A stretch of DNA of 52,081 nt from Cypionkella sp. Its GTDB lineage: Bacteria > Pseudomonadota > Alphaproteobacteria > Rhodobacterales > Rhodobacteraceae. Position 1 is the first letter of the stretch. Each line of letters starts with the position of its first letter. The notes beneath the pieces were generated by a model. That model saw only the letters and a list, made by a program, of their open reading frames with translations. It was not told the origin of the DNA and searched no databases. Of this stretch, positions 4,647 through 20,037 are shown one piece after another. Where the stretch lies: NCBI RefSeq assembly GCF_030652235.1, contig NZ_JAUSBA010000025.1, positions 1 through 52,081 on the forward strand, read 5' to 3'. A program made the position numbers and the translations under genes.

Positions 4647-4647
4647 G

Positions 4648-5553
4648 TCAGACCCTCTCTTTCGTGCCACGCGCGGCGATCAGGCCTTGCGGGCGGAAAA
4701 TCAACACGAGGATCACCGCGCCGTAGACGAAGGCATCACGGAACGGGCGGGCGTCTATGGGGAGAACGGTTTGCATGACGACCGAGGCCGCGCCGAGGAG
4801 GAAACCCGCGAGGACGGCTCCGGGCAGCGAGCCGAGGCCGCCGATCACCGTTGCGATGAAGGCCATCAGCATCACCGACGCGCCCATCTGGATGTCGACG
4901 GTGCCAGTTTGCGCGGCAAGGATCAGGCCGATGGCGGCGGCGAGTGCGCCGGACAGCGCGAAGGCTCCCATGATCACCCGATTGGCGCGGACGCCGAGCA
5001 TCCGGGCCATGGTGAAATTCTCCGCTGCTGCTCGCATCTCTAACCCGAAGCGGGTGCGTTTCAGGAAGGCGGTGAGGGCGAACAGGATGGCGATGGTGGC
5101 TGCGATGGTGATGACTTGAAGCAACGGAATCCGCGCGCCAAGGATTTCAACGGGTTGGCTGAGGGCAGGCAGCAGCGAGATCGACTTCGGGCGGCTGGAA
5201 AACAGCATCAGCAGGAAATAGCGGATCACGAAGCCCAGCGCGAAAGAGGCGATCATCATCGTCGCCGGATTGGCGCGGCGAAAGCGGCGGAACACGATGA
5301 TTTCCGACAGCACCGACAGGCCCGCCCCCATCGCCAGCACAAACGGGATCAGCAGGAACCACGGCAATTCGCCCGCGAACACGATGGCGACGGCATCAAC
5401 GGAAGGCCAAAGCAGCCCGAAGATGGAAAACGAAATCACATCGCCATGCGCGAAGTTCACCAACCGCATCACACCGAAAATCAGCGCGATGCCCAGCGCC
5501 CCAAGGGCATAAAGCGAACCAAGGCTGAGCGCGTCAAACAAGGTTTGCATCAA
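4648..5553 (-). CDS. livH: LivH-type ABC transporter permease
   Basis: This is the second membrane subunit of the Liv-type importer, 301 residues long and of normal length. It opens with the family signature GSLYALGALGIALIFGVMRLVNFAHGD (residues about 12-38), has about eight hydrophobic segments, and ends with the usual GGLGSLPGAVLAGFLLG and IFRPQGL stretches. It overlaps livF by four bases (ATGA), so the ATPase and permease are probably translated in a coupled way. Substrate specificity lies with the binding protein, not here. Confidence 0.92.
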   Translation of the reverse strand: MMQTLFDALSLGSLYALGALGIALIFGVMRLVNFAHGDVISFSIFGLLWPSVDAVAIVFAGELPWFLLIPFVLAMGAGLSVLSEIIVFRRFRRANPATMMIASFALGFVIRYFLLMLFSSRPKSISLLPALSQPVEILGARIPLLQVITIAATIAILFALTAFLKRTRFGLEMRAAAENFTMARMLGVRANRVIMGAFALSGALAAAIGLILAAQTGTVDIQMGASVMLMAFIATVIGGLGSLPGAVLAGFLLGAASVVMQTVLPIDARPFRDAFVYGAVILVLIFRPQGLIAARGTKERV

Positions 5554-6284
5554 TGCTCTCCATATCCAAAATAGGCGGCTTGCATGGCTTCGGATTGGCC
5601 CATGGCACGGGCGTCGCCGTCCAGCAGGATTTCACCACCCCGCATCAGGATCATCCGACCGCCAACCAGTTGCGCGCGGGTTGAAGATTGCTCGACAATC
5701 AGCAAGGTCAGCGCACGATGGCTGCGCAATGCGATCAAGCGTTCATAAACCTGATCGGTGATGTTGGGGGCAAGGCCGAGGCTGGGTTCGTCAATCGCGA
5801 TCAGGCGCGGGTTGGTCATCAGCGCCCGCCCGATCACCAGCATTTGCTGTTGGCCCCCCGACAGCAGGCCCGCCTGTGAATGGCGACGGTCTTTCAGGAT
5901 CGGGAAAGTGGCGTAAACCGCTTCCAACTCGGTCGCGGCACGGCTGCGCCAGTTGCGGGTGGCGGCGTGGATCCCCGTGCCGACCAGCAGGTTTTCCTCA
6001 ATAGTCAGGCTGCCGAACACCTCGCGCCCCTCGGGCACCATCGACAGGCCCATGCGGGCGATATCCTCGGGCGCGCGGCCTGTGATGTCTTGGCCTGCGA
6101 AATCAATCCGGCCCCCCGCGGGCGGCGTCACCCCCGCGATGGCGCGCAAAAGGCTGGATTTGCCCGCACCATTTGGCCCGGTGATGAACAGAATCTCGCC
6201 TTCGGTCAGGGTGAAGGTGACGTTGCGCACCGCCGATAAGCGGCCATAACGGATGGTCAGGTTCGATAGCGCAAGCAGGCTCAT
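5550..6284 (-). CDS. livF: LivF-type ABC transporter ATPase
   Basis: This is one of two cytoplasmic ATPases that power the Liv-type importer. It shows Walker A (GPNGAGKSS near residue 37), the signature LSGGQQQM, Walker B (LIAIDEPSLGL) and a switch region with LLIVEQS. The Q after the signature and the compact 244-residue length are typical of LivF. It overlaps livG by four bases at its start and livH by four at its end. Confidence 0.93.
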   Translation of the reverse strand: MSLLALSNLTIRYGRLSAVRNVTFTLTEGEILFITGPNGAGKSSLLRAIAGVTPPAGGRIDFAGQDITGRAPEDIARMGLSMVPEGREVFGSLTIEENLLVGTGIHAATRNWRSRAATELEAVYATFPILKDRRHSQAGLLSGGQQQMLVIGRALMTNPRLIAIDEPSLGLAPNITDQVYERLIALRSHRALTLLIVEQSSTRAQLVGGRMILMRGGEILLDGDARAMGQSEAMQAAYFGYGEH

Positions 6285-7045
6285 GCCAGCACCTCCAATA
6301 CCGGAAGGTTGGTCTCAGCGGCGGTGCCCATATAGGCGTGGCGGACTTTCTCGCTGACGCGGATGCTGGCGGGAACGCCCGTTTCAATCACCACACCGGA
6401 GTCCAGCACAACGATATGATCGCACAGGCTAAGGACCAGCCCGACGTTATGCTCGATCAGCAGCACACCACAGCCGATCTCGGCAGCGATGCGCCGGATC
6501 AGGGCGGCAAGGTCGGCGGCCTCTGGCCCAGACATGCCAGCGGCGGGTTCATCCAGAAGGATATAGTCAGGCTTGCCGATCAAAGCGCGGCCAATGGCGA
6601 CGCGACGTTCATCGGTATAGGGCAGGGTTCCGGCGATGCGGTTTTGCAGCGCGCCGATGCCGATCCAGTCCAGCATCGCGGCGGCCTCTGCCCGCGCTTT
6701 ACTGCGCGATTGGCCCAGACCCACGCCCGTCACTTCCAGATTGTCGATCACCGCCAGATCGCGAAACAACCGCCCGCCTTGAAAGGTGCGCGCGATGCCA
6801 CGGCGTCTGATCTCATACGGCTTCAGGCCAGACAGGTTCAGTTTGGCCGAGGCAGTGTCCAGCGACACCGCCCCGCCCGTGGGGGTTTGAAACCCGGTCA
6901 GCACGTTGACAAGCGTGGTTTTGCCCGCACCATTCGGGCCGATCAGCCCGGTGATCAGTCCGGGCGTGATCGTCAGATCAACATCCGACAGGGCCTTCAG
7001 CCCCGCGAAGGCAACCGACAGCTTGTCTGCGCTGAGTTGGCTCAT
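6281..7045 (-). CDS. livG: LivG-type ABC transporter ATPase
   Basis: This is the second ATPase of the importer, 254 residues long. Walker A (GPNGAGKTT), Walker B (YILLDEPAAGM) and the switch His (LLIEHNVGLVL) are intact. Where ABC proteins normally have LSGGQ and LivG usually has LPYGxQRR, this protein has LPYTDERRVAIGRAL. The residue pattern is divergent, but the open frame and other motifs argue for function. The frame extends upstream to 7102; the ATG at 7045 is preferred because it overlaps the hyuA stop by four bases and has a good ribosome site (AAGGAG). Confidence 0.9.
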   Translation of the reverse strand: MSQLSADKLSVAFAGLKALSDVDLTITPGLITGLIGPNGAGKTTLVNVLTGFQTPTGGAVSLDTASAKLNLSGLKPYEIRRRGIARTFQGGRLFRDLAVIDNLEVTGVGLGQSRSKARAEAAAMLDWIGIGALQNRIAGTLPYTDERRVAIGRALIGKPDYILLDEPAAGMSGPEAADLAALIRRIAAEIGCGVLLIEHNVGLVLSLCDHIVVLDSGVVIETGVPASIRVSEKVRHAYMGTAAETNLPVLEVLA

Positions 7046-9123
7046 TTTTTCTCCTTGCGGGTGATCAGATAAGAGCCGGAGGCGTCTAAAGTCGCGCTCC
7101 ACCCCGGCTCGATAACGATGGTGGTGGTGACTTCTTCGATCACCGCAGGGCCGTTGATCTCGGCCCCCGCGCCCAAGGCGCCGCCCTCGTATATCGGCGT
7201 GCGGGTGCGGCTGCCATCGGCGGAGAACACCGCATCGCGGTAGGCCTTGATCGCCTGATCAGTGGCTTTTCCGGCGGCGATGTGCATCCGCTTGGGTTTA
7301 TCGACCAGCCCGTAAACCGTGCTTTCGATGTTCACCACCTCGACCGTCGAATGCGGTTCCGAATAAGTGTAAAGCTGTTCGTGGCGGGCGTGGAAGGCGG
7401 CTTTGATCTGGTCGATGGTCTGCGCGTTCACCGGGAAGTTGCCAATTTCCACCGTACATTCATGGACTTGGCCGACATACCGCATATCAAGACTGCGCTT
7501 GATCAGGGTGTTGCCTGCGGCAAAGCCATCGGATGTCAGATGGGCGATACCTTGGGCTTCAATCTCGGTGAACAACTGGTCGATGCGGGTGTAGGCGGCA
7601 TCATTGTCCAGCCGCAGCACGGCGGTCGCCATGTAGTTATACTTCACATCCGAGATGATCTGACCAAAGGCGCACAAGCCCGAGGCGAGTTTCGGCAAGA
7701 CAATCGTGTCGATGCCCATATCGGCGGCAAGGGCCGTGATATGCGCCGCCGTCGCTCCACCTGCGCCCACCAGCACGAAATCACGCGGGTCATAGCCGCG
7801 TTCAATCGTAACCCGGCGGATGCCATTGACCATGTTGGCGTTGACGATGGTGAACATGCCATAGGCGGCGCGTTCCACCGACAGGCCCAAAGGATCAGCG
7901 ATGCTTTTCACCGCATCATAGGCCTTTTGCGCATCCAGCGGCAGACGGCCGCCGACAAGGCCATCCGGGTTCAGATAGCCCAGCACGATATTGGCGTCCG
8001 ACACCGTCGGCAGTTGCCCGCCCTGGCCGTAGCAGGCAGGCCCCGGATCGGACCCCGCCGATTGCGGACCCATTTGCAGCAGACCCATCTCGTCGATCCA
8101 GCCGATCGAGCCGCCGCCTGCGCCAAGAGTTTCGACCTGAATCATCGGCACACCGATGCGGTAGCGCAGGAAGTCGATGTTCTTGTTGATATTGGTCGAG
8201 CCGTCTTTAGTCAGCGTGATGTCAAACGAGGTGCCGCCCATATCCACCGTGATCACATCAGTTTTGCCGAACGGCGCGCAGACATAAAGGCCCGCCGCAG
8301 GGGCCGAGGCGGGGCCGGAGTTGATGGCGTAAACCGACCGATCCGTCATTGCCTGCCCAATCGCAAGCCCGCCGTTGGATTGGTAATAGCGCACAGGTTG
8401 TTTCGCGCCGAGCTGTTGGAAATAGGCATCCACCGCCGTGACATAGCGCTTCATAATGGGCGCGAGGTAGGCGTTGACCACCGCTGTCGAGGTGCGGGTG
8501 TATTCGCGGACCTGTGGGTAAAGCTCGGACCCCATCGTCAGGATCACCCCCGGCATCATCTCGCGCACGATCTCGCCCGCGCGGCGTTCATGGCTGGGGT
8601 CCAGTACCGACCAGACGAAACTGATCGCCACGGTTTCGACGCCTTCTGCAAGGAAAATCTCGCAGGCGGCGCGCACGTCGGCTTCGGTCAAGGGCGTGCG
8701 GATTTCGCCATTGGATAGGATACGCTCGCGCACGCCCCGGCGCAGGTAGCGCGGCACCAACATGGTGGCGGGCGGGTAATCGGGGTCGTAGCGGTAGCCG
8801 TCTTCCTTGTGACCAAGGCGGATTTCCAAGCTGTCCTCATGCCCCGCCGTGCAGATCAGCCCGGTTTTCGCGCCCTTGTGCTGGATCAGCGCATTCAGGC
8901 CCACGGTGGTGCCGTTGATGCAGAGATCGCAATTCGAGATGATCTCGGTGGCGGAAACCCCCAACTCCTCGGTCATCAAAGCAAGGCCGTTCTTGATCGC
9001 CAAGGTCGGGTCTTGCGGGGTGGACAGCGCCTTGAACAGCCGGACTTGTCCGGTTTGGTCGGCGAGGACGAAATCGGTGAAGGTGCCACCGGCATCAATG
9101 CCCAAACGGTAATCGGTCTTCAT
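7042..9123 (-). CDS. hyuA: Hydantoinase/oxoprolinase A subunit (HyuA family)
   Basis: This is the ATP-binding subunit of the hydantoinase/5-oxoprolinase/acetone-carboxylase superfamily, which uses ATP to open cyclic amides such as N-methylhydantoin or 5-oxoproline. The 693-residue protein begins with the actin-like phosphate-binding motif GIDAGGTFTDFVLAD (residues 8-22), then carries the second phosphate motif VDMGGTSFD near residue 293 and the glycine-rich GAGGGSIGW. Length matches the family. It follows hyuB after 12 bases with the strong ribosome site GGAGGG and overlaps livG. The exact ring compound is not readable; 5-oxoproline, a hydantoin or a related lactam are all possible. Confidence 0.9.
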   Translation of the reverse strand: MKTDYRLGIDAGGTFTDFVLADQTGQVRLFKALSTPQDPTLAIKNGLALMTEELGVSATEIISNCDLCINGTTVGLNALIQHKGAKTGLICTAGHEDSLEIRLGHKEDGYRYDPDYPPATMLVPRYLRRGVRERILSNGEIRTPLTEADVRAACEIFLAEGVETVAISFVWSVLDPSHERRAGEIVREMMPGVILTMGSELYPQVREYTRTSTAVVNAYLAPIMKRYVTAVDAYFQQLGAKQPVRYYQSNGGLAIGQAMTDRSVYAINSGPASAPAAGLYVCAPFGKTDVITVDMGGTSFDITLTKDGSTNINKNIDFLRYRIGVPMIQVETLGAGGGSIGWIDEMGLLQMGPQSAGSDPGPACYGQGGQLPTVSDANIVLGYLNPDGLVGGRLPLDAQKAYDAVKSIADPLGLSVERAAYGMFTIVNANMVNGIRRVTIERGYDPRDFVLVGAGGATAAHITALAADMGIDTIVLPKLASGLCAFGQIISDVKYNYMATAVLRLDNDAAYTRIDQLFTEIEAQGIAHLTSDGFAAGNTLIKRSLDMRYVGQVHECTVEIGNFPVNAQTIDQIKAAFHARHEQLYTYSEPHSTVEVVNIESTVYGLVDKPKRMHIAAGKATDQAIKAYRDAVFSADGSRTRTPIYEGGALGAGAEINGPAVIEEVTTTIVIEPGWSATLDASGSYLITRKEKK

Positions 9124-9135
9124 CGTAGCGCCCTC

Positions 9136-10920
9136 CTAGTTCGCGGCCACGGCGCGGCGACGCGCACGCAGGGTTTCGGTTGCCGCCATATCGACGGTCA
9201 GGCTTTCGGCATCGGTGACGATCACGCCGTAATCGGCTTCCGCCCCCTTCACCGAGACAAGGCCGTTCTTGATATCCCACACCACCTTTTCCACCGCCCG
9301 ATCCATCGGGTTGCCATAGCCGCCACCGCCGGGGTTCATGTTGGTGATCCGATCACCGGGTTTGATCACCTTGATCACGTTCTCGCGGATGGTCTCAGAG
9401 TGGTCGCCTTCCACCAGTTCCAGCCGCCCGACCTTCTCATCAATCATGGTCGAGGCTGCCCCCGCCGCGCCCACAGCCGGAATGCGGCGGCCTTCGCCGA
9501 AGGTGATGAAGGTCATGTCATCGCTCAGCGGCTCCACCTCCCACGCGGTGCCGGAACCGCCACGGAATTTGCCCGCACCGCCGCTATCGGTCATCAAAGA
9601 ATAGCGGTGGATGATGATCGGATAGCTGTATTCCAGCAACTCCACGTCACCCGAAGTCAGCGCGCCAAAGCAGCATTCCGGGCCACAGGCGTGCCAGCCG
9701 TCTTGCGCAGGCGTCGCCCCCGCGCCTGAGATGATGGTGGCCAGCACCATCGTCACATATTCCTCGTCGTGGCGCTTGTCCCATCCGGCGATGTTCAGCC
9801 CGTTGGCATGGCCCCAGCTGGCCGAAACCTTCGACGGCACGGCTTTCTCAAACGCCAGCCGCACCGCATCGGTCAGCGTCTCCATCGGCGTGGTGGTACA
9901 GTTCATATGCGGCGCGGGTTCGCGGGCGTTACACAGCGTCCCCTTCGGCCCCATATCAACCGAGATGCAGCGATACAGGCCTTCGTTGTACGGTGGCGGC
10001 AGTTGCGCAAACATCATCAAGCCAAGGTAAACGCCGGAGTAGGAATTTCCCTCATAACTGTTGATGAAATAAGGGATTTGCGGCGGGCTAGAGATTGCGA
10101 TGTGGCAGGTATCGGCCTTGATCGTCACCGTCGCGGTGATGGTCAGATCGCCAAAGCCATGGCCCGCATCTTCAACAATCGCCGAGCCTTCATAGGTGCC
10201 GTCGGGCACGGTGGAAATCAGGCTGCGCATTTGCTTTTCGGCCATGTCCAAAAGCGTGTCGATGCAGGCATCCACCACGTCTTCGCCATACTTATCCAGC
10301 ATCGCGATCAAGGCGCGCTCGCCGACCTGACAGGCCCCGATCAGCGCATTAAAGTCGCCCTCTTGGTCGCGCCGCGCCCGCATGTTGGTGAAGATGAAGT
10401 TCAGCACATCCTTACGCGGCACGCCACGGTCCCAGATTTTCACCGGCGGGATGCGCAGACATTCGGCGTAAATGTCCTTGGCATTGGGGTTATAGCCCGC
10501 AGGCACCGGGCCGCCAATGTCAGTCAGATGGCCTTTGCAGACGGTCCAATACTTCAGCTTTCCCTTGTAAAACACCGGCTTGTAAAAGCAGGTATCAATC
10601 GCGTGGCTGCCACCCCAAGCCGGATCGTTGTGGATCAGCAGATCGCCCTCAAAGATGTCGCCCTCAAAATAGCCCGCCACCACCTTCATCGCCGGGATCA
10701 GACTGCCAAGGTGGATCGGAATATCCTGCCCCTGCAAGATCATCTCGGGCCGCGCATTGAACAGCGCGGTGGAATAATCATGCGCCAAATTGAACACCGA
10801 CGAGCGCGCGGTTTTCTCAAGGCTCAGCGTCATTTCGCGCTGCGTGGTTTCCAGAATGCCGCGAACCACCGATAGCGTGATCGGATCAACCTTCGTGGCG
10901 GATGGTGTGGCGCTGGCCAT
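9136..10920 (-). CDS. hyuB: Hydantoinase/oxoprolinase B subunit (HyuB family)
   Basis: This is the second subunit of the ATP-dependent hydantoinase/5-oxoprolinase. It is 594 residues long, within the usual range. Family marks include NDPAWGGSHAIDTCF near residue 98, SDSGGAGKFRGGSG-type sequence in the C-terminal third (here TDSGGAGKFRGGSGT), and the terminal glycine motif NPGGGGYGNPMDR. It is the first gene of the seven-gene hyu-liv operon, so its upstream region should hold the operon promoter and the target of the divergent AraC regulator. HyuA and HyuB would act together as a cytoplasmic heteromer on ligand brought in by the Liv importer. Confidence 0.9.
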   Translation of the reverse strand: MASATPSATKVDPITLSVVRGILETTQREMTLSLEKTARSSVFNLAHDYSTALFNARPEMILQGQDIPIHLGSLIPAMKVVAGYFEGDIFEGDLLIHNDPAWGGSHAIDTCFYKPVFYKGKLKYWTVCKGHLTDIGGPVPAGYNPNAKDIYAECLRIPPVKIWDRGVPRKDVLNFIFTNMRARRDQEGDFNALIGACQVGERALIAMLDKYGEDVVDACIDTLLDMAEKQMRSLISTVPDGTYEGSAIVEDAGHGFGDLTITATVTIKADTCHIAISSPPQIPYFINSYEGNSYSGVYLGLMMFAQLPPPYNEGLYRCISVDMGPKGTLCNAREPAPHMNCTTTPMETLTDAVRLAFEKAVPSKVSASWGHANGLNIAGWDKRHDEEYVTMVLATIISGAGATPAQDGWHACGPECCFGALTSGDVELLEYSYPIIIHRYSLMTDSGGAGKFRGGSGTAWEVEPLSDDMTFITFGEGRRIPAVGAAGAASTMIDEKVGRLELVEGDHSETIRENVIKVIKPGDRITNMNPGGGGYGNPMDRAVEKVVWDIKNGLVSVKGAEADYGVIVTDAESLTVDMAATETLRARRRAVAAN

Positions 10921-10960
10921 GCCTATTCCCCTTCAAATGCGCGGCGCAAAAGGGGGGCTT

Positions 10961-10977
10961 TCGGGCAAATTGCCCGA
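10961..10977. promoter_or_regulatory. 17-bp perfect palindrome upstream of hyuB
   Basis: TCGGGCAA-A-TTGCCCGA is a perfect dyad about 40 bases upstream of the hyuB ATG, in the divergent hyuB/araC-type interval. A second imperfect dyad (GCGCATTT...AAATTGCGC) lies at 11092-11112, nearer the regulator. Either could be an operator or, for the first, a transcript hairpin. Assignment to the AraC protein is inference. Confidence 0.4.
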
Positions 10978-11174
10978 GACTTCCGCAAAAACTCCCCGTT
11001 GCGCGGCGTCTTCTGCACCGTTGCAGCGGTCAGGCTAGGCGGCGCGGGGGGCAGGCGTCTTTGCCCCAAGTGCACGGGTTTTTGTCGCAGAGCGCATTTT
11101 GACAAATTGCGCGAAAGCGGCGCTTTACAGAAAGAATATTGCGTGGCCAGATTGTGGAAACTGCGGAGGCTGCG

Positions 11175-12119
11175 ATGAAGACCACCATCACTACCAAAGG
11201 CATTGATCTGGCCGCGCGCAGCCGTCATTGGCACGAGGCGATTGGGCAGGCCTATTTCCCGCTGGACCTTAGCTTCCGCCGCCCCGAGGCGTTTGATGGC
11301 GAATTGAGCATGTGGCAATTGGGTGAGGTGTCGCTGTCGCGGCTGACCTCTGACGCCCTGATGTACCGCCGCCTGCCGAAGCATTTGCAGATCCAAGGCC
11401 CCGAGGAATTTCTGGTTACTCTGCCCGCGAAATCTGAACTGCTGTTTGCCCAAGGCGGGCGCGAGGTGCGCGCCAATCCCGGCGCGTTTTTCATCGAGCG
11501 CAGCCATGAACCCTATGAGTTCAGCCATGCCGAACCCGCCGATCTGTGGGTGATGAAGCTGTCGCTGGCCATGCTGGGCGGCCGGGTGCGCGCGCCGGAT
11601 CGGTTTTGCAGCTTGCAGTTTGATGCCACCAACGGTGCCAACGGGCTGTTCGTGGACATGGTGCATCTGATCCCGCAGCGCTATGACGCGATGAGCGAGG
11701 AAGCCCGCAGCATGGTCGGGCGGCAGTTGGCGGATTTGCTGGCGATGGCTTTGCAGTCGGATGAACGCGTGCTGAGTTCGGGCGGATCGACCGTGCGGAT
11801 GGCGCATTTGGCGCGGATCGAAAGCTTTGTGCGCCGCCATATCGACAACCCCGATCTGGGGCCGGATGAGGTGGCGGCAGGCTGTGGGGTCTCGGTGCGC
11901 TATCTGCACGAATTGCTGCGCGACACCAATCAGACCTTGGGCAGTTGGATCCGCGATCAGCGTCTGGCTGCGGCGCGCGAAGATCTGGGCAACCCGCGGG
12001 ATAAGCGTGCGATTGGCGAGATCGCCTATGCCCGCGGCTTTGCTGATCAGGCGCAGTTCAGCCGCGCATTTCGGCAGCGCTATGGCATCACCCCGAAGGA
12101 AGCGCGGGCGCAGGGGTGA
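11175..12119 (+). CDS. AraC-family transcriptional regulator
   Basis: This 314-residue regulator has an N-terminal AraC-binding-like ligand domain (roughly residues 15-190) and a C-terminal pair of helix-turn-helix motifs (about 210-314). The second carries the family pattern EIAYARGFADQAQFSRAFRQRYGITPKEAR. The frame is open from 11139, but the ATG at 11175 follows a clean GGAGG ribosome site six bases upstream. It is transcribed away from hyuB and lies between the hyu-liv operon and the pxp/biotin-enzyme operon. It most likely controls hyu-liv and may also respond to the same substrate for the neighbouring operon. The inducer is unknown. Confidence 0.9.
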   Translation: MKTTITTKGIDLAARSRHWHEAIGQAYFPLDLSFRRPEAFDGELSMWQLGEVSLSRLTSDALMYRRLPKHLQIQGPEEFLVTLPAKSELLFAQGGREVRANPGAFFIERSHEPYEFSHAEPADLWVMKLSLAMLGGRVRAPDRFCSLQFDATNGANGLFVDMVHLIPQRYDAMSEEARSMVGRQLADLLAMALQSDERVLSSGGSTVRMAHLARIESFVRRHIDNPDLGPDEVAAGCGVSVRYLHELLRDTNQTLGSWIRDQRLAAAREDLGNPRDKRAIGEIAYARGFADQAQFSRAFRQRYGITPKEARAQG

Positions 12120-12155: not shown

Positions 12156-13124
12156 TTAGCGCTGGAGATGGGCGCGGACGCGGGCAATCGCGGCTTGGCG
12201 ATCATGGCGCGCGGTAAGGGCCTGATCCAACGTCACCTCGACAAACCGCGCCGGGCTGTGCGGCTGCAACTGGCCGATCAGGTCCATATCCGCCGAAATG
12301 ATCGTGCCCAGCATCATATAGCCGCCGCCCGACACCGCATCGCGGTGCAGCACGATGGGTTCGGTGCCGGATGGCACTTGCACCGAGCCGTAGGGATAGC
12401 AGGCATCGACGATATTCGACGGGTCCGACCCCGCCCCGAACGGCGGTGTGCGGGGCACGAAATCCAGCGCTTTGCCGCCTTTGAAGCGGTAGCCGATGCG
12501 ATCAGCCTCGGGGGCGACTTTCCAGGTGTCGGCGAAGAACTGTTTGCCCGCCTCGGCCGTGACGCGGTGCCAATATAGCCCCGGCAGCATCCGCAACTCT
12601 GCCGGATTACCCGGACCACGGCGCAGGTTTGCGGGAACCGAGCCTTTGCCCGAGCCGCCCTGTCCCAGCGGCAACCTATCGCCCGCCTTGAGCGCACGGC
12701 CGTCATGCCCGCCCAGCGCGCCCAAAGTGTAGGTGGAGCGTGAGCCAAGTTTCAGCGGCACATCAATGCCGCCTGAGACGGCAATATAGGCCCGCGCGCC
12801 GGATTTCAGGAAACCAAACGACAGCTTGTCACCGGCTTTCACCGGGAAAGCCTCCCATGTCGCGCGTTCATCGCCGTTGACTTTGGGCGGCAGGTCACCG
12901 CCCGTCACCGCCACCGTCGCGGCTGTGGTGAACTCAATCTCTGGCCCCATGAACACCGCTTCCAGCACGGCGGCGCCTTCATCATTGCCGACCAGCATAT
13001 TGGCGGCGCGCAACGCAAAGCGGTCCATCCCGCCGGAAATCGGGATGCCGAGGTGATAATAACCGGGACGGCCAAGGTCTTGCACGGTGGTCGACAGGCC
13101 GGGGGTAAGGATCTTAACGGCCAT
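12156..13124 (-). CDS. pxpC: AHS2/KipA-type carboxyltransferase-like subunit (PxpC family)
   Basis: This 322-residue protein belongs to the AHS2 family: KipA, 5-oxoprolinase subunit PxpC, and the carboxyltransferase domain of urea carboxylase. It starts with the family pattern ILTPGLSTTVQDLGRPGY and has GIPISGGMDRFALRAANMLVGN and SGGIDVP in the expected places. In the PxpABC enzyme this subunit helps cleave 5-oxoproline with ATP. In urea carboxylase the same fold receives carboxyl from biotin. Because biotin carboxylase and biotin carrier genes are directly upstream here, the second role is a real possibility. It overlaps the AHS1 gene by 11 bases and is last in its operon. Confidence 0.86.
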   Translation of the reverse strand: MAVKILTPGLSTTVQDLGRPGYYHLGIPISGGMDRFALRAANMLVGNDEGAAVLEAVFMGPEIEFTTAATVAVTGGDLPPKVNGDERATWEAFPVKAGDKLSFGFLKSGARAYIAVSGGIDVPLKLGSRSTYTLGALGGHDGRALKAGDRLPLGQGGSGKGSVPANLRRGPGNPAELRMLPGLYWHRVTAEAGKQFFADTWKVAPEADRIGYRFKGGKALDFVPRTPPFGAGSDPSNIVDACYPYGSVQVPSGTEPIVLHRDAVSGGGYMMLGTIISADMDLIGQLQPHSPARFVEVTLDQALTARHDRQAAIARVRAHLQR

Positions 13125-13989
13125 GAAGAACCTCCATCAGCTTGGCATTGGTGGCATCGATGTCTTTGTTGAACTCGGTCAGCGAAAAGCTGGCCTCGCG
13201 GATGGTGGGCAGGAATTTATTCTCATTCACCGCCTCAATATCCGCGTCATATTGATCGCGGTTGATCGGCTTCCACTTCACGATGTCACCAGGTCGGAAC
13301 AGGCACATCTCCTCTTGCAGATAGCTCACCTGCTGGTTCGGATCATAAATCGGCATCGGCGTGACGCCGAACATCTGATAACCGCCCGCGCCCCGCACCG
13401 AATAGATGCAGCTAAAGCAACCGCCGTGACCGATGGTCAGCTTTGGCGTGTCGGTGCGCGGGCGCAGGTATTTCGGCACCTGCAACTGCCGTTTACGCTC
13501 CACCATCTGATACAGGAACGGCAGGCCAGCGACGAAACCCACCATCGAGACAAACCACGGCTGGCTGGAATGCGCCTGCACGAAATCCTCAACGCTGCCC
13601 AGACCGTTCACCGCTGCGGCATATTCCAGATCGGTGGCTTTGGGGTCTTGGTGACGCTCGCGAAACCGCATCAAAGTCTCATGCGTCCACGGGTCTTGAT
13701 AATAGACCGGAATTTCCATGATGCGGGTTTTCAGCGTGGCGTCGGATTTGCTCGCCGCCCCCTCCATCGACTGCAATTCGCGCAGCAGGTCGGCGGGCTT
13801 GATCTGGTCGGGGTCGTATTTGACCTGAAAGCTGGCGTTGGCTGGGCAAATCTCGGTCACGCCGCGTATCCCTGCTTGCTTGACCGCATTGGTCATCGAC
13901 AGGCTGGTAAAAAAAGCCTCAAGCGACATTTCTTCCGAAACCTCCGCGAAGATGTGTTCGTCGCCACCAAAGCTGAAACGGATCGACAT
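13114..13989 (-). CDS. pxpB: AHS1/KipI-type carboxyltransferase-like subunit (PxpB family, divergent)
   Basis: This is the AHS1 partner of the downstream AHS2 protein, 291 residues long against about 220-240 for a classical KipI/PxpB. The AHS1 core is visible in GFVAGLPFLYQM and GAGGYQMFGVTPMPIYDP, where canonical PxpB has forms such as GFxPGFPYL and GGWxLIGxTP. The extra N-terminal region (about residues 1-85) and these substitutions set it apart from ordinary PxpB, closer in outline to the AHS1 part of urea-carboxylase-like enzymes. Start at 13989 follows a GGAG-like site, with ten bases to the biotin carboxylase stop. Exact substrate unknown. Confidence 0.83.
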   Translation of the reverse strand: MSIRFSFGGDEHIFAEVSEEMSLEAFFTSLSMTNAVKQAGIRGVTEICPANASFQVKYDPDQIKPADLLRELQSMEGAASKSDATLKTRIMEIPVYYQDPWTHETLMRFRERHQDPKATDLEYAAAVNGLGSVEDFVQAHSSQPWFVSMVGFVAGLPFLYQMVERKRQLQVPKYLRPRTDTPKLTIGHGGCFSCIYSVRGAGGYQMFGVTPMPIYDPNQQVSYLQEEMCLFRPGDIVKWKPINRDQYDADIEAVNENKFLPTIREASFSLTEFNKDIDATNAKLMEVLHGR

Positions 13990-13998
13990 GGGCTTCTC

Positions 13999-15375
13999 CT
14001 ACGGTTCAAGATTGGGGGTCAGGCGGGCGGCATGGTGTTCCAACCAGCCTTCCAGCCAACGGGTGTGAAAATCGCCTGCCTGCACCGAAGGGTCGGCGGC
14101 CAGCGCCTGAAACAGCGGCTTGGTGGTTTTCAACCCGACGATTTGCAATTCCGACAGTGCGCGGGCCATGCGGGTGATCGCCGCCTCGCGGGTTTCGGCA
14201 TGAACGATCAGCTTGGCCAGAAGCGAGTCGTAGAACGGCGGTACAGTGTAGCCGGGGTACAGCATCGAATCGAAGCGGACGCCGGGGCCACCGGGGATGC
14301 GCAAGCTGTCCACCGTGCCGGGGAAGGGTGCGAAATCGCGGGCGGGGTCTTCGGCGTTCAGGCGCACTTCGATGGCATGGCCTTTGACGGTGACATCCGC
14401 TTGGGTCAGCCGCAAAGGCTCGCCCCCCGCGATGCGCAGCATTTCAGCGACCAGATCAATGCCGGTGATCATCTCGGTCACCGGATGTTCGACCTGAATC
14501 CGTGTGTTCATCTCGATGAAATAGAAGCGGTCGGCGTCTTCGTCATAAAGATATTCCACTGTCCCCGCGCCGGAGTAGTTCACCGCAAGCGCCAGACGCA
14601 CAGCACTGCTGCACAGCTCATCGCGCAACTGCGGCGACAGCGCGCGCGAGGGCGCTTCCTCCCACACCTTCTGGCGGCGACGTTGCAGGCTACATTCGCG
14701 CTCGTAGCAATGGATGGCGTCGGTGCCATCGGCAAGCACCTGCACCTCGATATGCCGCGCCTTGGTGATGACCTTTTCCATATAAAGGCCACCGTCACCA
14801 AAGGCCGCCAAAGCCTCGGCCTGCGCTTGCGGGAAGGCTTGTTCAAACGCAGCCAAGTCCTGCGCGATGCGGATGCCGCGCCCGCCACCGCCCGCTGCGG
14901 CTTTGATCATCACCGGAAAGCCAGTATCGGCCAAAATCGCGCGCCCCGCGTCGATACTGTCCACCCGCCCGAGCGATCCGGGCACAATCGGCACCCCCGC
15001 CGCATGGGCCGCACCCCGCGCGGCAACCTTGTCGCCCATCAGCCGGATTGCATCACCGGAGGGCCCAACAAAGATCAGACCCGCCGCCGTCACCGCATCG
15101 GAAAAGCCCGCATTTTCGGCCAGAAAGCCATAGCCCGGATGCACGGAATCGCAGCCCGTCTCCGCTGCCGCCTTCAGAATCGCCGCGATGTTCAGATAGC
15201 TTTTCTTCGCCGCTGGCGGGCCGATGTTCACCGCCTCATCCGCCAGTTGCACATGCAAAGCGGTGGCGTCGGCATCGGAATACACCGCCACCGTGGCAAT
15301 CCCCAGATCGCGGGCGGCGCGGATGATCCGCACCGCAATCTCGCCCCGGTTGGCAATCAGCAGCTTTTTCAGCAT
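13999..15375 (-). CDS. Biotin carboxylase (AccC-like)
   Basis: This is an ATP-grasp enzyme that carboxylates biotin using bicarbonate and ATP. The 458-residue protein has the usual order: N-terminal LLIANRGEIAVRIIRAARDLGI, GYGFLAEN near residue 82, the ATP-binding glycine loop AAAGGGGRGIR near residue 160, and the catalytic EMNTRIQVEHPVTEMITG near residue 288. Its start overlaps the biotin-carrier stop by one base (TGATG). Genome context, between a free biotin carrier and AHS1/AHS2 subunits and far from fatty-acid genes, suggests it serves a dedicated amide carboxylase rather than the housekeeping acetyl-CoA carboxylase. Confidence 0.9.
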   Translation of the reverse strand: MLKKLLIANRGEIAVRIIRAARDLGIATVAVYSDADATALHVQLADEAVNIGPPAAKKSYLNIAAILKAAAETGCDSVHPGYGFLAENAGFSDAVTAAGLIFVGPSGDAIRLMGDKVAARGAAHAAGVPIVPGSLGRVDSIDAGRAILADTGFPVMIKAAAGGGGRGIRIAQDLAAFEQAFPQAQAEALAAFGDGGLYMEKVITKARHIEVQVLADGTDAIHCYERECSLQRRRQKVWEEAPSRALSPQLRDELCSSAVRLALAVNYSGAGTVEYLYDEDADRFYFIEMNTRIQVEHPVTEMITGIDLVAEMLRIAGGEPLRLTQADVTVKGHAIEVRLNAEDPARDFAPFPGTVDSLRIPGGPGVRFDSMLYPGYTVPPFYDSLLAKLIVHAETREAAITRMARALSELQIVGLKTTKPLFQALAADPSVQAGDFHTRWLEGWLEHHAARLTPNLEP

Positions 15376-15608
15376 CAGGACAGTTCCGCCAGAACCGTGC
15401 CCGCCATCACCGGGTCTTCGTTGTCGGTCACGAAATGAATGGCGCTGCCCGCGACTTCGGATTTCACCTCGTGGAAGCTTTTCATCACCTCGATCAGTCC
15501 AATCACATCGCCCACCGCCACCGCATCGCCCTCGGCCTTAAACGGTGGGGTGTCGGGGGAGGATGAGCGGTAGAAGGTGCCGGGAAGCGGGGATTGGATG
15601 ACGGGCAT
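15375..15608 (-). CDS. Stand-alone biotin carboxyl carrier protein
   Basis: This is a 77-residue protein consisting only of the biotinyl domain. The attachment lysine sits in IEVMKSFHEV (about residue 44), matching the EVMK form of the biotinylation motif, and SPLPGTFYRSSSP near the start is typical of AccB-type carriers. It lacks the N-terminal extension and linker of housekeeping AccB (about 150-160 residues). Spacing to pxpA is 11 bases and it overlaps the biotin carboxylase by one base, so carrier and carboxylase are made together. Confidence 0.9.
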   Translation of the reverse strand: MPVIQSPLPGTFYRSSSPDTPPFKAEGDAVAVGDVIGLIEVMKSFHEVKSEVAGSAIHFVTDNEDPVMAGTVLAELS

Positions 15609-15619
15609 TTTGGCCTCCG

Positions 15620-16333
15620 TTAAGAAAGGATAGCGCGCACGGCGCGGGCAATGTCGATGGCATTGGGCGTATCAGAATGGATGCACACCGTATCGCAACG
15701 CACGGATATGTCGCTGCCATCTATCGCGGTGCCGAGGTTTTCTTGCATGGCCCGGCGCACGCGGGCGGCCATCAAAGCGGGGTCTTTGGCATCATGCTCG
15801 CGGGTGACGATCAGGCTGCCATCGGGGCGATATTCCAGATCGCCATAGAATTCGGCAATGAAAGCGTGACCGCGCGCGGGGTAGATGGTTTCGTGCAACG
15901 TGCCCGTCATGCCCAGCAGCGGCACGCCATACACATCGGCGGCGTCACAGACCGCGTGGGCAATATCTTCCTGCCGCGCCGCCATACCGTAGAGGCTGCC
16001 ATGCGGCTTGATATGGTTCAACTCGACCCCTTCGGCGCGCAGAAACCCGCAGAGCGCGCCGATCTGGTAGATCATGCAGTTGGCCATTTCCACGCGGCCC
16101 ATTTTCATCTCACGCCGCCCAAAGCCTTGCAGATCGGGCAAAGACGGATGCGCGCCAACCTTGACGCCATGCTGTTTCGCCAAGCGCACCGTGGCGCGCA
16201 TGTGATCGAAATCGCTGGCGTGAAAGCCGCAAGCGACGTTGGCGATGTCGATAAACGGCATCATTCCGGCATCATCGCCCATCCGATACAGCCCAAAGCT
16301 TTCGCCCATGTCGCAGTTGATGGTTACAGCCAT
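15620..16333 (-). CDS. pxpA: LamB/YcsF family protein (5-oxoprolinase subunit A)
   Basis: PxpA is the LamB/YcsF-family component of the PxpABC 5-oxoprolinase. The 237-residue protein opens with the family signature INCDMGESFGLYRMGDD and continues with NVACGFHASDFDHM and KVGAHPSLPDLQGFGRR, all normally conserved; the length is slightly under the usual 245-255. It is the first gene of a five-gene leftward operon (pxpA, biotin carrier, biotin carboxylase, AHS1, AHS2) and is divergent from a LysR regulator. It may hydrolyse or prepare the ring after activation by the other subunits. Confidence 0.92.
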   Translation of the reverse strand: MAVTINCDMGESFGLYRMGDDAGMMPFIDIANVACGFHASDFDHMRATVRLAKQHGVKVGAHPSLPDLQGFGRREMKMGRVEMANCMIYQIGALCGFLRAEGVELNHIKPHGSLYGMAARQEDIAHAVCDAADVYGVPLLGMTGTLHETIYPARGHAFIAEFYGDLEYRPDGSLIVTREHDAKDPALMAARVRRAMQENLGTAIDGSDISVRCDTVCIHSDTPNAIDIARAVRAILS

Positions 16334-16393: not shown

Positions 16394-16440
16394 CGTTTTT
16401 TGTGGTTCGTTATCTAAAATTCAGATGCACAGGTGACGCG

Positions 16441-17346
16441 ATGGCTTTAACCTTGAAACAGTTACGCTATTTCATGGCGGCGGCGGAAACCGGGCAGATC
16501 AGCCATGCCGCGATGGAGCTAAACATCTCACAATCCGCGATCACCACCGCCGTGCAGGGGCTGGAATCGCAACTGGGCGTACGGCTGTTTGACCGCTCCG
16601 CACAGGGCGTCGTGCCGACGATCGAAGGCGCGCGATTCCTCAACCACGCGCGCAACATCTTGGCGGCGGTGGAAGATGCCGAGCGTTTGCCGCTGGGGCA
16701 GGATCGGCAGGTGTCGGGGCGGCTGCGCTTGGGCACCACCTATACCGTTGCGGGCTATTTCATGTCGCGCCACTACGCCCGCTTCCGCCGCGCCCATCCT
16801 GATATCCAGCTTGAAATGATGGAAATGCCGCGGCTTGCGGTTGAGGAAGGTCTGGCAACCGGCAGTCTCGATATGGCGGTGATGCTGGTGTCGAACCTTG
16901 CCAACTCTGCCGGGCTTGAACAGGAAATTCTGATGCGCTCGCGCAGGCGGCTGTGGTTGCCGACCGAGCATCCGTTGTTGTCGCAAGAGCGGATCACCCT
17001 GTGCGATGTCGCGGACCAGCCCTATGTGATGCTGACGGTGGATGAGGCGAAGGATACCGCCAGCCGCTATTGGGCGAAGACCGGGTTTGCGCCTTCGGTT
17101 TGCTTTACCACCAGTTCGGTTGAGGCGGTGCGCTCGATGGTCGCCAATGGGGTCGGGGTGACGATTCTGTCCGATATGGTGTATCGGCCATGGTCGCTGG
17201 AAGGCCAGCGGATCGAAATACGCGCCCTGGCTGATACGATCCCCAGCATGGATGTGGGGCTCGCGTGGCGCAAATCGCAGGGTCTGACCGCCACTGCCGC
17301 CGTGTTTCGTGCCTTTATGTCGGTGGCGATGGGCGGCGGGGGATAG
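16441..17346 (+). CDS. LysR-family transcriptional regulator
   Basis: This is a 301-residue LysR-type regulator. The N-terminal winged helix-turn-helix (TLKQLRYFMAAAETGQISHAA, then LNISQSAITTAVQGLE) covers residues 3-62, followed by the two-lobed effector domain. An upstream in-frame start at 16402 is possible, but the ATG at 16441 gives the family-standard N-terminus. Divergent placement makes it the likely regulator of the pxpA-biotin enzyme operon. Its inducer would presumably be that pathway's substrate or product. Confidence 0.92.
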   Translation: MALTLKQLRYFMAAAETGQISHAAMELNISQSAITTAVQGLESQLGVRLFDRSAQGVVPTIEGARFLNHARNILAAVEDAERLPLGQDRQVSGRLRLGTTYTVAGYFMSRHYARFRRAHPDIQLEMMEMPRLAVEEGLATGSLDMAVMLVSNLANSAGLEQEILMRSRRRLWLPTEHPLLSQERITLCDVADQPYVMLTVDEAKDTASRYWAKTGFAPSVCFTTSSVEAVRSMVANGVGVTILSDMVYRPWSLEGQRIEIRALADTIPSMDVGLAWRKSQGLTATAAVFRAFMSVAMGGGG

Positions 17347-17348
17347 GT

Positions 17349-17780
17349 TTAGTCAATCGGCGCGGTGTGATGATCCTGCGCGCATTGGCCGTGATCGCCC
17401 AAAACCTCAATCACCCGACAATCGGCGATGGTGCCATGGGCGCATTGCACGACCATGCGCTGCAACTCTTGCTCCAGTGCTTTCAACTGCGTGATCCGCG
17501 CCTGCACGGCGGCAAGCTGGGCTTTGGCAATCGCATCGGCGGCAGAACAGGGCAGCTCAGGTCGGTCCGACAGGCTGAGCAGATCGCGGATCGCCTCCAG
17601 CGGAAAGCCCAGCGCGCGGGCATGACGGATGAAGGCCAAGCGCTGCCGTGCCAGCGGGCCATACAGCCGCTGATTGCCGCGGCTGCGTTCGGGCGGCGGC
17701 AGCAGGCCAATCTGCTCATAATACCGCACAGTCGGCACCTTCACCCCGGTCTCCGCGGCCAATTTCCCGATGGTCAGCAA
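17349..17780 (-). CDS. MerR-family metal-responsive regulator
   Basis: This is a 143-residue MerR-type activator. The DNA-binding domain reads LTIGKLAAETGVKVPTVRYYEQIGLLPPPERS at the N-terminus, followed by the long dimerisation helix and a C-terminal part with Cys residues (ELPCSA, VQCAHGTIADCRV, GDHGQC) suitable for metal binding. No ATG gives the expected N-terminus. A TTG at 17780, preceded six bases away by AAGAGG, is chosen. The cysteine pattern and divergence from a P1B ATPase point to Zn, Cd or Pb sensing, as in ZntR/PbrR/CadR. The exact metal is not readable. Confidence 0.88.
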   Translation of the reverse strand: MLTIGKLAAETGVKVPTVRYYEQIGLLPPPERSRGNQRLYGPLARQRLAFIRHARALGFPLEAIRDLLSLSDRPELPCSAADAIAKAQLAAVQARITQLKALEQELQRMVVQCAHGTIADCRVIEVLGDHGQCAQDHHTAPID

Positions 17781-17790
17781 AAGAAACCTC

Positions 17791-17821
17791 TTGAAGCTAT
17801 AGTTACTAGAGACATTAGCTT
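17791..17821 (+). promoter_or_regulatory. MerR-type zntA promoter with overlong spacer
   Basis: A -35 element TTGAAG (17791-17796) and a -10-like TAGCTT (17816-17821) are separated by 19 bases, the long spacing characteristic of MerR-activated promoters. Between them is the dyad CTATAGT-T-ACTAGAG (17797-17811), nearly the same as the core of known PbrR/ZntR-type operators. It lies 51 bases upstream of the zntA ATG and directly before the regulator start. Confidence 0.85.
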
Positions 17822-17871
17822 TAGGGTTCAAAGACGGCAAGTGGCATGTCGCAAGAACGCAAGAGGCTGAA

Positions 17872-20037
17872 ATGACTGACCTATCCGGCAACGACTCACA
17901 CGAGTGGCGCATCTCTGGCATGGATTGCGCCGCCTGTACCCGCAAAATCCAGACCGCGGTTGAACGTTTGCCGGGCGTCAGCGGCGTTGAAATCACCCTG
18001 ATGAATGAACGCCTGCGGCTGAATCTCGCGCCGGAAACCACCGCGCCCGATCAGATCGAACGCGCCGTGCAAGCACTCGGCTATGGCATCACCGCGCCCG
18101 CCGCAGCGGCACCCGAAGCCCCGACCGATGCCCACTGCACCGATATCCACGCCGATCATACCGCCCACAACCATGCCGACCTGGCAACGGATGTACGCTG
18201 GTATCACACCGCCAAGGCGCGCTTGGTGTTTTTCACCGGCATCCTGCTGGCCGCCAGTCAGATCGCGAAATGGACTTTTCTTGCAGACCATGCCATCTGG
18301 GCGTTCACGCTGGCCTGCCTGATCGGCCTGCTGTCCGTGGCGCGCAAAGCGCTGGCGGCGCTGCGGGCCGGGATGCCGTTTACCATCGAAATGCTGATGA
18401 CCATCGCCGCAACCGGGGCTTTGCTGATCGGCGCCGCCGAGGAAGCCGCCTTGGTGGTCTTCCTGTTCGCGGTGGGCGAATTGCTGGAGGGTGTGGCCAC
18501 CAATATGGCCCGCGACGGCATCCGCGCCTTGGCCAAACTGGTGCCCGCCACGGCTTTGTTGGAGCATGACGGCCACAGCCACGAAGTTGCCGCCGAAACC
18601 CTGAGGCCCGGCCAGATCATCCAAGTGCGCCCCGGCGACCGGATGGCGGTCGATGGCGAAATCATCGAGGGCACCTCGAGCATCGACGAAAGTGCGGTAA
18701 CCGGCGAAAGCATCCCTGTGACCAAAGGGCCGGGGGCCGCCGTGCTGGCGGGCACGATCAACACCGAAGCCGTGCTGCGTGTGCGCGTGGCGAAGGCCAG
18801 CGCCGACAGCACCCTCGCCCGCATCGCCCAGATGGTCGCCGATGCCGAAGCCGCCCGCGCGCCGACCGAACGCTTCATCGACCGTTTCAGCCGCTGGTAT
18901 ATGCCCGCCATTGTCGGCGTGGCGCTGTTGGTCGCCTTGCTGCCGCCCCTGACCATCGGCGCGGATTGGGGCACTTGGACCTACCGCGCGCTGGCGCTGT
19001 TGCTGATCGGCTGCCCCTGCGCGATGGTGATCTCGGTCCCCGCCGCCGTCGCCGCAGCCCTGTCCACCGGGGCGCGGCACGGCCTGCTGATCAAAGGCGG
19101 TGCGGTGATCGAAGCGATGGCAAATCTGCACACCATCGCGCTGGACAAAACCGGCACCCTGACCGAAGGCCGCCCGGTACTGACCGACACCCTGCCCGCC
19201 GAGGGAATCCCTGCGGCCACATTGTTGCAATTGGCCGCCACGGTCGAGGCAGGCTCCACCCATCCGCTCGCCAAAGCGATCCTCGCGCAAGCCAAGGTTG
19301 ACGGGTTGGCGCTGCTGGCCAACCAAGACGCCCGCGCTTTTCCCGGTAAGGGGGTGGAAGCGATGATCGCCGGCGCGCTGGTGCATGTCGGCGTGGCTGA
19401 TGCCGCTGACCCGGCGGTCGCCCAGCTTCAGGCGGACGGCAAAACGGTGGTCAAGGTCACCCGGGACGGCGTGGCCCTTGGACTGCTTGCCCTGCGGGAC
19501 GAGCCGCGTGCTGAAGCCGCCGAGGCGTTGCAGCAGTTGAAGGCGCTGGGGTTGCAGGTGGTGATGCTGACCGGAGATAATCTTGGCTCTGCCACGGCAG
19601 TCGCGACCCGGTTGGGCATCCAAGCGCGGGCGGGGCTGCTGCCTGAAGGTAAGATCGCCGCCATTCAGAAGCTCGCGGCAGAGGGCGGCGTGATGATGGT
19701 CGGTGACGGCATCAACGACGCCCCCGCCTTGCGGCAGGCCAGCGTGGGCGTGGCAATGGGGGCGGGCACCGATGTGGCGCTGGAGACCGCCGATGCCGCG
19801 ATCCTGCGCAACAAACTGACCGACCTGCCCGCGATGATCCGGCTGTCGCGCGCCGCGATGGCCAATATCCGGCAGAATGTGGCGGTGGCTTTGGGATTGA
19901 AAGCCGTGTTTCTGGTGACCTCGGTTCTGGGCCTGACTGGCCTTTGGATCGCGGTGCTGGCCGATACTGGGGCCACCGTGCTGGTCACCCTGAACGCGAT
20001 GCGGCTTCTGGCGCGGGATCCCCGGAAGGGAGGGTGA
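17872..20037 (+). CDS. zntA: Zn/Cd/Pb-exporting P1B-type ATPase
   Basis: This is a heavy-metal efflux pump of the inner membrane, 721 residues long. It carries an N-terminal HMA domain with the metal-binding DCAAC (residues 18-22), then a His-rich linker (about residues 84-103, many His and Asp) likely to bind Zn. Downstream are TGES, the transmembrane metal site CPC (Cys381-Pro-Cys383), the phosphorylated Asp425 in DKTGT, and GDGINDAP. The last membrane helix reads LADTGATVLVTLNAMRLL, a hallmark of the Zn/Cd/Pb (P1B-2) subgroup rather than copper pumps. Start follows AAGAGG. It is controlled by the divergent MerR protein. A long open frame on the other strand is a shadow. Confidence 0.95.
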   Translation: MTDLSGNDSHEWRISGMDCAACTRKIQTAVERLPGVSGVEITLMNERLRLNLAPETTAPDQIERAVQALGYGITAPAAAAPEAPTDAHCTDIHADHTAHNHADLATDVRWYHTAKARLVFFTGILLAASQIAKWTFLADHAIWAFTLACLIGLLSVARKALAALRAGMPFTIEMLMTIAATGALLIGAAEEAALVVFLFAVGELLEGVATNMARDGIRALAKLVPATALLEHDGHSHEVAAETLRPGQIIQVRPGDRMAVDGEIIEGTSSIDESAVTGESIPVTKGPGAAVLAGTINTEAVLRVRVAKASADSTLARIAQMVADAEAARAPTERFIDRFSRWYMPAIVGVALLVALLPPLTIGADWGTWTYRALALLLIGCPCAMVISVPAAVAAALSTGARHGLLIKGGAVIEAMANLHTIALDKTGTLTEGRPVLTDTLPAEGIPAATLLQLAATVEAGSTHPLAKAILAQAKVDGLALLANQDARAFPGKGVEAMIAGALVHVGVADAADPAVAQLQADGKTVVKVTRDGVALGLLALRDEPRAEAAEALQQLKALGLQVVMLTGDNLGSATAVATRLGIQARAGLLPEGKIAAIQKLAAEGGVMMVGDGINDAPALRQASVGVAMGAGTDVALETADAAILRNKLTDLPAMIRLSRAAMANIRQNVAVALGLKAVFLVTSVLGLTGLWIAVLADTGATVLVTLNAMRLLARDPRKGG

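Follow-up and report, generated by a model that had tools for sequence, protein, structure and literature searches.

Why should a PxpA-like hydrolase subunit and the two halves of a carboxyltransferase (CT), AHS1 and AHS2, be encoded together with a biotin carboxylase (BC) and a free biotin carboxyl carrier protein (BCCP)? The question is raised by a five-gene operon on contig NZ_JAUSBA010000025.1 (assembly GCF_030652235.1) of Cypionkella sp., a member of the Rhodobacteraceae; the whole stretch of 52,081 nucleotides that was analysed (positions 1 to 52,081, contig C37 of the 4.8 Mb genome) is called the window below. The operon probably specifies a single biotin-dependent N-carboxylase together with a dedicated hydrolase, PxpA, and the substrate would most likely be a lactam or a similar cyclic amide. 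The biotin-dependent N-carboxylase part of this proposal is well supported by sequence comparison, and the interpretation of the initial annotation, a biotin-dependent amide carboxylase working with PxpA, finds support in the same comparisons.

The operon and the kinship of its carboxyltransferase

The operon occupies positions 16333-12156 of the minus strand in the order PxpA, BCCP, BC, AHS1 and AHS2. The PxpA-like LamB/YcsF hydrolase subunit (15620-16333, 237 aa; PF03746, 1.5e-87) carries an HSD variant of the HGD motif and is followed by the 77 aa BCCP (15375-15608; PF00364 Biotin_lipoyl, 7.4e-13), whose biotin site is Lys43 in an EVMK motif, and by a 458 aa AccC-type BC (13999-15375), recognized by its three BC Pfam domains, NCBIfam matches, motifs and position in a tree. 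AHS1 (13114-13989, 291 aa; PF02682 CT_C_D, 5.5e-41) provides CT subdomains C and D, and AHS2 (12156-13124, 322 aa; PF02626 CT_A_B, 1e-86) subdomains A and B, both placements being backed by trees. BCCP and BC overlap by 1 bp and AHS1 and AHS2 by 11 bp, while the remaining two gaps measure 11 and 9 bp. Pfam and NCBIfam matches confirm all five gene identities, so that the original description of overlapping or closely spaced genes for a LamB/YcsF protein, a 77-residue carrier, a BC and both AHS subunits agrees with coordinates, gaps and domain content. Database labels assign parts of the operon to two other enzymes ('acetyl-CoA carboxylase' and 'PxpA'). Among the nearest relatives listed is the AHS1 of Pseudorhodobacter sp. 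PARRP1 (97% identity). Opposite AHS1 and BC, the plus strand contains an open frame of 783 aa (13087-15438) with the codon composition of an antisense shadow.

For comparison, a scan of species genomes provided at least 576 stretches encoding a relative, the best 80 of which were kept; with 11 plasmid loci, five loci from an even draw of the phylum and the window itself they make up 97 loci of the window-like branch, here called type I, with weaker relatives termed type Ib and loci with fused AHS1-AHS2 type II. The 97 include L094, a repeat of L087 from the same plasmid record, and both L129 and L052, the contigs of which are of the same size. As a control served 33 hand-picked plain-Pxp loci (L133-L165) from the shorter open reading frame (ORF) rows of the phylum draw; a BC gene is found near two of them (L147 and L163), which were counted apart, leaving 31, of which L165 was missed by the AHS1 profile, leaving 30, while PxpA was matched in 29.

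Neither CT half is recognized as a 5-oxoprolinase subunit, with AHS1 reaching 75.7 bits in the PxpB equivalog model TIGR00370 (cut-off 145.55) and AHS2 212.1 bits in the PxpC equivalog model NF045499 (cut-off 500). The urea carboxylase model TIGR02712 scores AHS2 at 229 and AHS1 at 111.1 bits, far below its cut-off of 1303.85. In trees, built like that of BC on subsets of rows (86, 61 and 70), AHS1 and AHS2 group with the CT domains of urea and guanidine carboxylases with supports of 99 and 95, and placing them among PxpB and PxpC is rejected (p-AU 0.00095 and 5.3e-5, respectively). This outcome of the phylogenetic check proposed in the initial annotation indicates that the two proteins are, as judged from their sequences, kin of the urea carboxylase CT and not PxpB/PxpC.

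Individual residues point in the same direction. AHS1 Lys173 aligns with Lys1605 of KlUA, which excerpts of PMC5770610 describe as the probable general base in the transfer of the carboxyl group. The column contains Lys in 96 of the 97 type I loci (L065, gapped here, stays in the count), in L131 and L132 and in 20/20 urea carboxylases; it contains Arg in 30/30 PxpB, 11/11 type II proteins, L147 and L163. AHS1 Tyr174 and Tyr204 are equally found in 96/97 type I proteins and all 20 urea carboxylases, but in 0/30 PxpB. In AHS2, Asp240 is conserved in 95/97 type I and 20/20 urea carboxylases, where 31/31 PxpC possess Ser, and Ser265 in 94/97 and 20/20, with a single occurrence among 31 PxpC. The Lys-Tyr pair recurs in an even draw of the class (18/18 type I loci and 15/15 Ib-type copies).

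AHS1 had been estimated to exceed PxpB by about 50-70 residues, in line with its 291 aa compared with the 228 aa of the PxpB that the same genome encodes in an ordinary pxpABC set (contig C40). Part of the surplus comes from an insertion around 101-116 and from a C-terminal section, which PxpB lacks and urea carboxylases share. The two core motifs reported as altered need to be considered separately: GGYQ is urea-carboxylase-like, as is PKY, whereas GFVAGLPFL is PxpB-like, the 20 urea carboxylases having GLGDVYL[GD]AP. The best match of the predicted AHS1 structure is the Kluyveromyces lactis urea carboxylase (PDB 3va7); as the model is weak in its core (mean pLDDT 63.7, residues 172-229 under 50), only the ranking of its structural matches is used.

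Biotin carboxylase, carrier and hydrolase subunit

BCCP scores 114.6 bits in NF005457 (cut-off 87), and its biotin motif reads EVMK in 92 of 94 loci (93 type I loci and L132), the other two having GVMK and ELMK. The BC of the window retains the glycine loop, EMNTRIQVEH and Arg338, which we take to be the catalytic motifs of a biotin carboxylase, so that the window proteins combine these with a biotinyl-lysine motif in the carrier. The BC tree unites 16 of the 17 type I BCs with the Ib sequence in a clade (support 100) beside AccC (97) and places the BC of the archaeal locus L006 elsewhere. The BCs of 19 urea carboxylases (one of the 20 was too short for the tree) make up a separate clade, and the type I BC lies outside this branch. 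With a CT of the urea carboxylase kind and a BC of the AccC branch, the enzyme is a mosaic.

Biotin supply is linked to the operon in some lineages. Of 101 type I loci (L094 being left out of this neighbour count), 11 possess a BioY biotin transporter gene no more than 6 kb from AHS1, as compared with 0/31 plain-Pxp and 0/11 type II loci; in 10 of the 11 it is on the same strand and within about 130 bp after AHS2. In Acidiphilium, bioB follows AHS2. The Cypionkella sp. genome encodes the ligase BirA. Its best accC match and an accB-type ORF are found together on contig C7; BC and BCCP of the operon are therefore distinct from the housekeeping AccC and AccB of acetyl-CoA carboxylase. Around the pxpABC set on contig C40 (locus L165), no BC or BCCP was detected in 12.7 kb. 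As the AHS1 profile matched only the window copy in the genome, and PF02682 only the window copy and the C40 PxpB, no urea carboxylase was detected. The separate pxpABC copy bears out the statement that the operon is distinct from plain PxpABC.

The hydrolase subunit itself belongs to the 5-oxoprolinase subunit family, scoring above the cut-offs of two PxpA models (NF003814, 264.1 bits over 226; NF003816, 226 over 213). Within this family the type I proteins are recognizable by Ser220, which turns HGD into HSD in 93 of 94 type I proteins, with the archaeal L006 as the exception, compared with 0/29 plain PxpA, all of which possess Gly. A second candidate signature, the loss of an invariant Arg (Thr177) in type I PxpA, was dropped because the Arg mostly follows at position 178 and the result hinges on the alignment.

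Since PxpA belongs to the 5-oxoprolinase subunit family and 5-oxoproline is a lactam, the operon might encode a second, biotin-dependent 5-oxoprolinase, which performs the overall PxpABC reaction with carboxylation in place of phosphorylation. This appears improbable, as ordinary pxpABC genes also occur in the window genome and in at least four of the seven type I genomes of the phylum draw, and as type I PxpA differs at the HGD motif. PxpA, AHS1 and AHS2 are homologous to PxpA, PxpB and PxpC, but in contrast to PxpABC, the CT of the window set has Arg replaced by Lys and Trp by Tyr, and BC and BCCP are added.

Distribution of the gene set and other biotin-linked AHS pairs

All five genes are present in 93 of the 97 type I loci, the other four (L012, L013, L051 and L128) being cut by contig ends. 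Among 299 genomes drawn evenly from the phylum, the AHS1 profile detects type I at 486-573 bits in seven genomes, including the genome of origin, and type Ib in one genome at 212 bits, with long frames of the urea carboxylase kind scoring 86-118 bits and the rest below 76. Of 145 genomes from the order of genome G237, two possess type I, as do 20 of 385 evenly drawn genomes of the window's class; type Ib occurs in five of the 385. The 18 type I loci new in this class draw encode BCCP in 18/18, BC in 17/18 and PxpA in 18/18 cases; the BC-less locus, L275, is a 4.7 kb contig, and the PxpA of L268 is partly seen, about 5 kb away. The anticipated co-occurrence of BC and BCCP with this AHS1 branch thus holds in both samples. 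Outside the Alphaproteobacteria, the genes are present in plasmid records from haloarchaea, Rubrobacter and Diaphorobacter, in the first two with other gene orders. Near the AHS1 of Natrialba, no BC is labelled within the 15 kb read, and an inverted gene for an 'ATP-binding protein' is located nearby.

That the operon merely represents an ordinary biotin-independent PxpABC with acetyl-CoA carboxylase genes inserted by chance would fit the database labels and locus L131, which possesses neither BC nor BCCP; this explanation is, however, hardly credible and was rejected in view of the conservation of the set, the trees, the scores below the PxpB and PxpC cut-offs and the separate accBC of the genome.

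Some alphaproteobacterial genomes (family code f180; L287-L294 and L284-L286) encode type Ib AHS1-AHS2 pairs, several of them in tandem, with no BC or BCCP nearby, and three of the four such genomes also carry a single cluster that includes BC and BCCP; a common BC may perhaps serve several CT pairs. On an Agrobacterium plasmid (L005, 1765-6112), an annotated CBASS-type defence cluster is located about 1.5 kb upstream of the operon PxpA.

Type I is not the only AHS branch connected with biotin. The 11 type II loci (L226-L236), which comprise all phylum-draw rows with open frames of 537-815 aa, harbour a BC gene (open frames of 583-888 aa) and pxpA beside the CT in 11/11 cases, with a BCCP part recognized by profile in five. 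In this they resemble type I, but their CT is fused, retains the PxpB-like Arg and Trp and forms a separate clade in both CT trees; type II is a second, separate biotin-linked branch. Lys173 was discarded as a general marker of biotin linkage, as type II combines a BC gene with Arg at this column. The initial annotation set the operon apart from biotin-free PxpABC; this stands insofar as the type I branch differs, but the contrast becomes less sharp with 11/11 fused AHS1-AHS2 proteins with PxpB-like residues adjoining a BC. In locus L147 (4281-8714), a PxpB-like AHS pair is found beside an AccB-like protein, with an open frame of 173 aa, and a BC of the AccC type that groups with AccC. The title of PDB entry 9yx5 (2025) describes a Mycobacterium smegmatis long-chain acyl-CoA carboxylase complex with the AHS pair MSMEG_0435-0436 bound. 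In this entry, an AHS pair is in physical contact with a biotin-dependent carboxylase; by title and sequences, to which the comparison is confined, the pair has a PxpB-like VPRR in place of the VPKY of the window. Together, L147 and L163, type II and PDB 9yx5 show that biotin linkage is wider than the type I branch.

The mycobacterial complex, at the level of its title, and the distance of PxpA from the CT genes in two loci (about 6 kb in L132 and about 5 kb in L268) could also be accommodated by a carboxylase that takes a non-amide, for example a carbon acid, while PxpA acts in a separate step. This is very unlikely, as the nearest characterized CTs carboxylate nitrogen, in urea and guanidine, and the HSD signature of PxpA travels with the type I CT.

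Neighbouring genes and the proposed reaction

A divergent LysR regulator gene (16402-17346, plus strand; PF03466, PF00126) borders the operon on its PxpA side, often found at this place in relatives with a LysR match in most loci, while on the AHS2 side an AraC-family regulator (11139-12119, plus strand; PF14525, PF12833) separates it from a pair of minus-strand genes for CapB-like (9136-10920; NF050157, 1089.4 bits over 1000) and CapA-like proteins (7042-9123; NF050156, 1247.8 bits over 1000) of the caprolactamase beta/hydantoinase B and caprolactamase alpha/hydantoinase A families. Next is a Liv/Urt-type ABC importer (2377-7102, minus strand) with binding protein, two permeases and two ATPases, identified from ORFs and a Peripla_BP_6 match; four of its genes, all but the ORF at 6281-7102, were scanned and score below the cut-offs of Liv/Urt models. 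Importer and CapAB-like pair may be functionally linked to the operon. At 17349-20037, genes for a MerR-like regulator and, opposite to it, a heavy-metal P-type ATPase, both recognized by eye from the translations, are apparently unrelated.

Within 6 kb of the 101 type I loci, genes are found for LivF-like proteins (34 loci), CapA/hydantoinase A-like proteins (19), class III aminotransferases (11) and molybdenum hydroxylases (9), as opposed to 0, 0, 0 and 1 of the 31 plain-Pxp loci. Within 10 kb the type I counts rise to 64, 33, 32 and 28, but as the plain-Pxp loci were fetched with about 6 kb per side, only the 6 kb comparison is fair. Excerpts of PMC8453981 describe the caprolactamase CapAB as opening its lactam in an ATP- and bicarbonate-dependent way, so that two unrelated bicarbonate-using systems may adjoin here: CapAB belongs to unrelated Pfam families and is no biotin enzyme. 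As the same excerpts report 80-86% identical proteins to be inactive on expression, the 'caprolactamase' label was rejected as a substrate assignment for the neighbours. Between the CapAB-like pair of the window and the hydantoinase-like pairs found in Bradyrhizobium loci, identity amounts to only about 33%. Naming one substrate from gene context was likewise abandoned, given the lineage-dependent neighbours and the lack of amidase enrichment. A pathway could be formed by a molybdenum hydroxylase that makes a lactam, an enzyme that opens it and an omega-aminotransferase.

From these data we infer that the five proteins form a complex acting on an amide, most likely a lactam or similar, in the following order. 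At the expense of ATP, BC would load CO2 from bicarbonate onto the biotin attached to Lys43 of BCCP. AHS1 and AHS2 would act as the carboxyltransferase, with AHS1 Lys173 as general base, and transfer CO2 to the nitrogen of the amide, in the manner of urea and guanidine carboxylases. PxpA would then hydrolyse the N-carboxylated lactam or similar cyclic amide, whereupon the resulting carbamate would lose CO2. The net reaction would be an ATP-driven amide opening with bicarbonate as catalyst. In plain PxpABC, according to excerpts of PMC13274462, PxpBC is assumed to phosphorylate and PxpA to open the ring; carboxylation would here replace this phosphorylation.

Several observations weigh against the proposal of a lactam N-carboxylase with its own hydrolase. 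Locus L131 (genome G237, 8512-11176) encodes LysR, PxpA, AHS1 and AHS2 with a Lys-type CT, but no BC or BCCP nearby, with a gap of 35 bp at their usual place, and no BCCP of this family over the cut-off was found in the G237 genome; L131 could depend on a BC from another system or represent a remnant. The type I loci are mostly close relatives, so that the counts are not independent, and both CT trees contain long branches. Type II, which keeps Arg beside a BC, indicates that some biotin links do without Lys. Neighbours vary between lineages, and amidases are not enriched within 6 kb (4/101 type I compared with 2/31 plain-Pxp loci). Finally, the AHS1 152 column, equivalent to KlUA Asp1584, contains Phe in 97/97 type I proteins as in PxpB and Asp in urea carboxylases, so that the pocket is only partly urea-carboxylase-like. 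Asp1584 is not claimed as a urea/guanidine specificity residue, as excerpts of PMC12186494 mention an Asp/Asn difference without position.

The last column also bears on the possibility that the operon encodes a split urea- or guanidine-type carboxylase for a linear urea, guanidine, ureido or amide substrate, in which PxpA replaces allophanate hydrolase or carboxyguanidine deiminase. The kinship of both CT halves, the general-base Lys, GGYQ, the shared insertion and C-terminal part, the presence of BC and BCCP and the best structural match are common to the window set and urea/guanidine carboxylase (K. lactis, PDB 3va7); moreover, an importer of the Liv/Urt kind is nearby, though below urea-model cut-offs, and the hydantoinase-like neighbour could supply a ureido compound. 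On the other hand, urea/guanidine carboxylase is a single BC-CT-BCCP chain and the window set consists of five chains with an AccC-branch BC, Asp1584 is replaced by Phe throughout type I, the partner would be a PxpA, a protein known for opening lactams, and the annotated neighbours read contain no allophanate hydrolase (one further record being unannotated). Cumulatively, we consider a urea- or guanidine-type enzyme unlikely and a cyclic amide the favoured substrate of the proposed N-carboxylase.

It is quite possible that the operon stands for a widespread class of enzymes, biotin-dependent lactam N-carboxylases/hydrolases of five subunits, which would use bicarbonate as catalyst and would have arisen when a urea-carboxylase-type CT pair was joined to an AccC-type BC. 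Often beside molybdenum hydroxylase and class III aminotransferase, they would participate in the conversion of a cyclic imine via the lactam to an omega-amino acid. No published characterization of this five-gene set was found in the open-licence PubMed Central literature searched. In excerpts of Lombard and Moreira (2011; PMC3199775), homologues of the urea carboxylase type of CT are encoded by two separate genes to which no function is assigned, and their cooperation with other biotin carboxylases is left undecided; with a dedicated BC and BCCP accompanying the CT pair in nearly every locus checked, this question becomes directly testable. If the proposal is true, biotin-dependent N-carboxylation would extend beyond urea and guanidine, many proteins labelled 'acetyl-CoA carboxylase' and 'PxpA' would gain a function and lactam breakdown would have an additional route.

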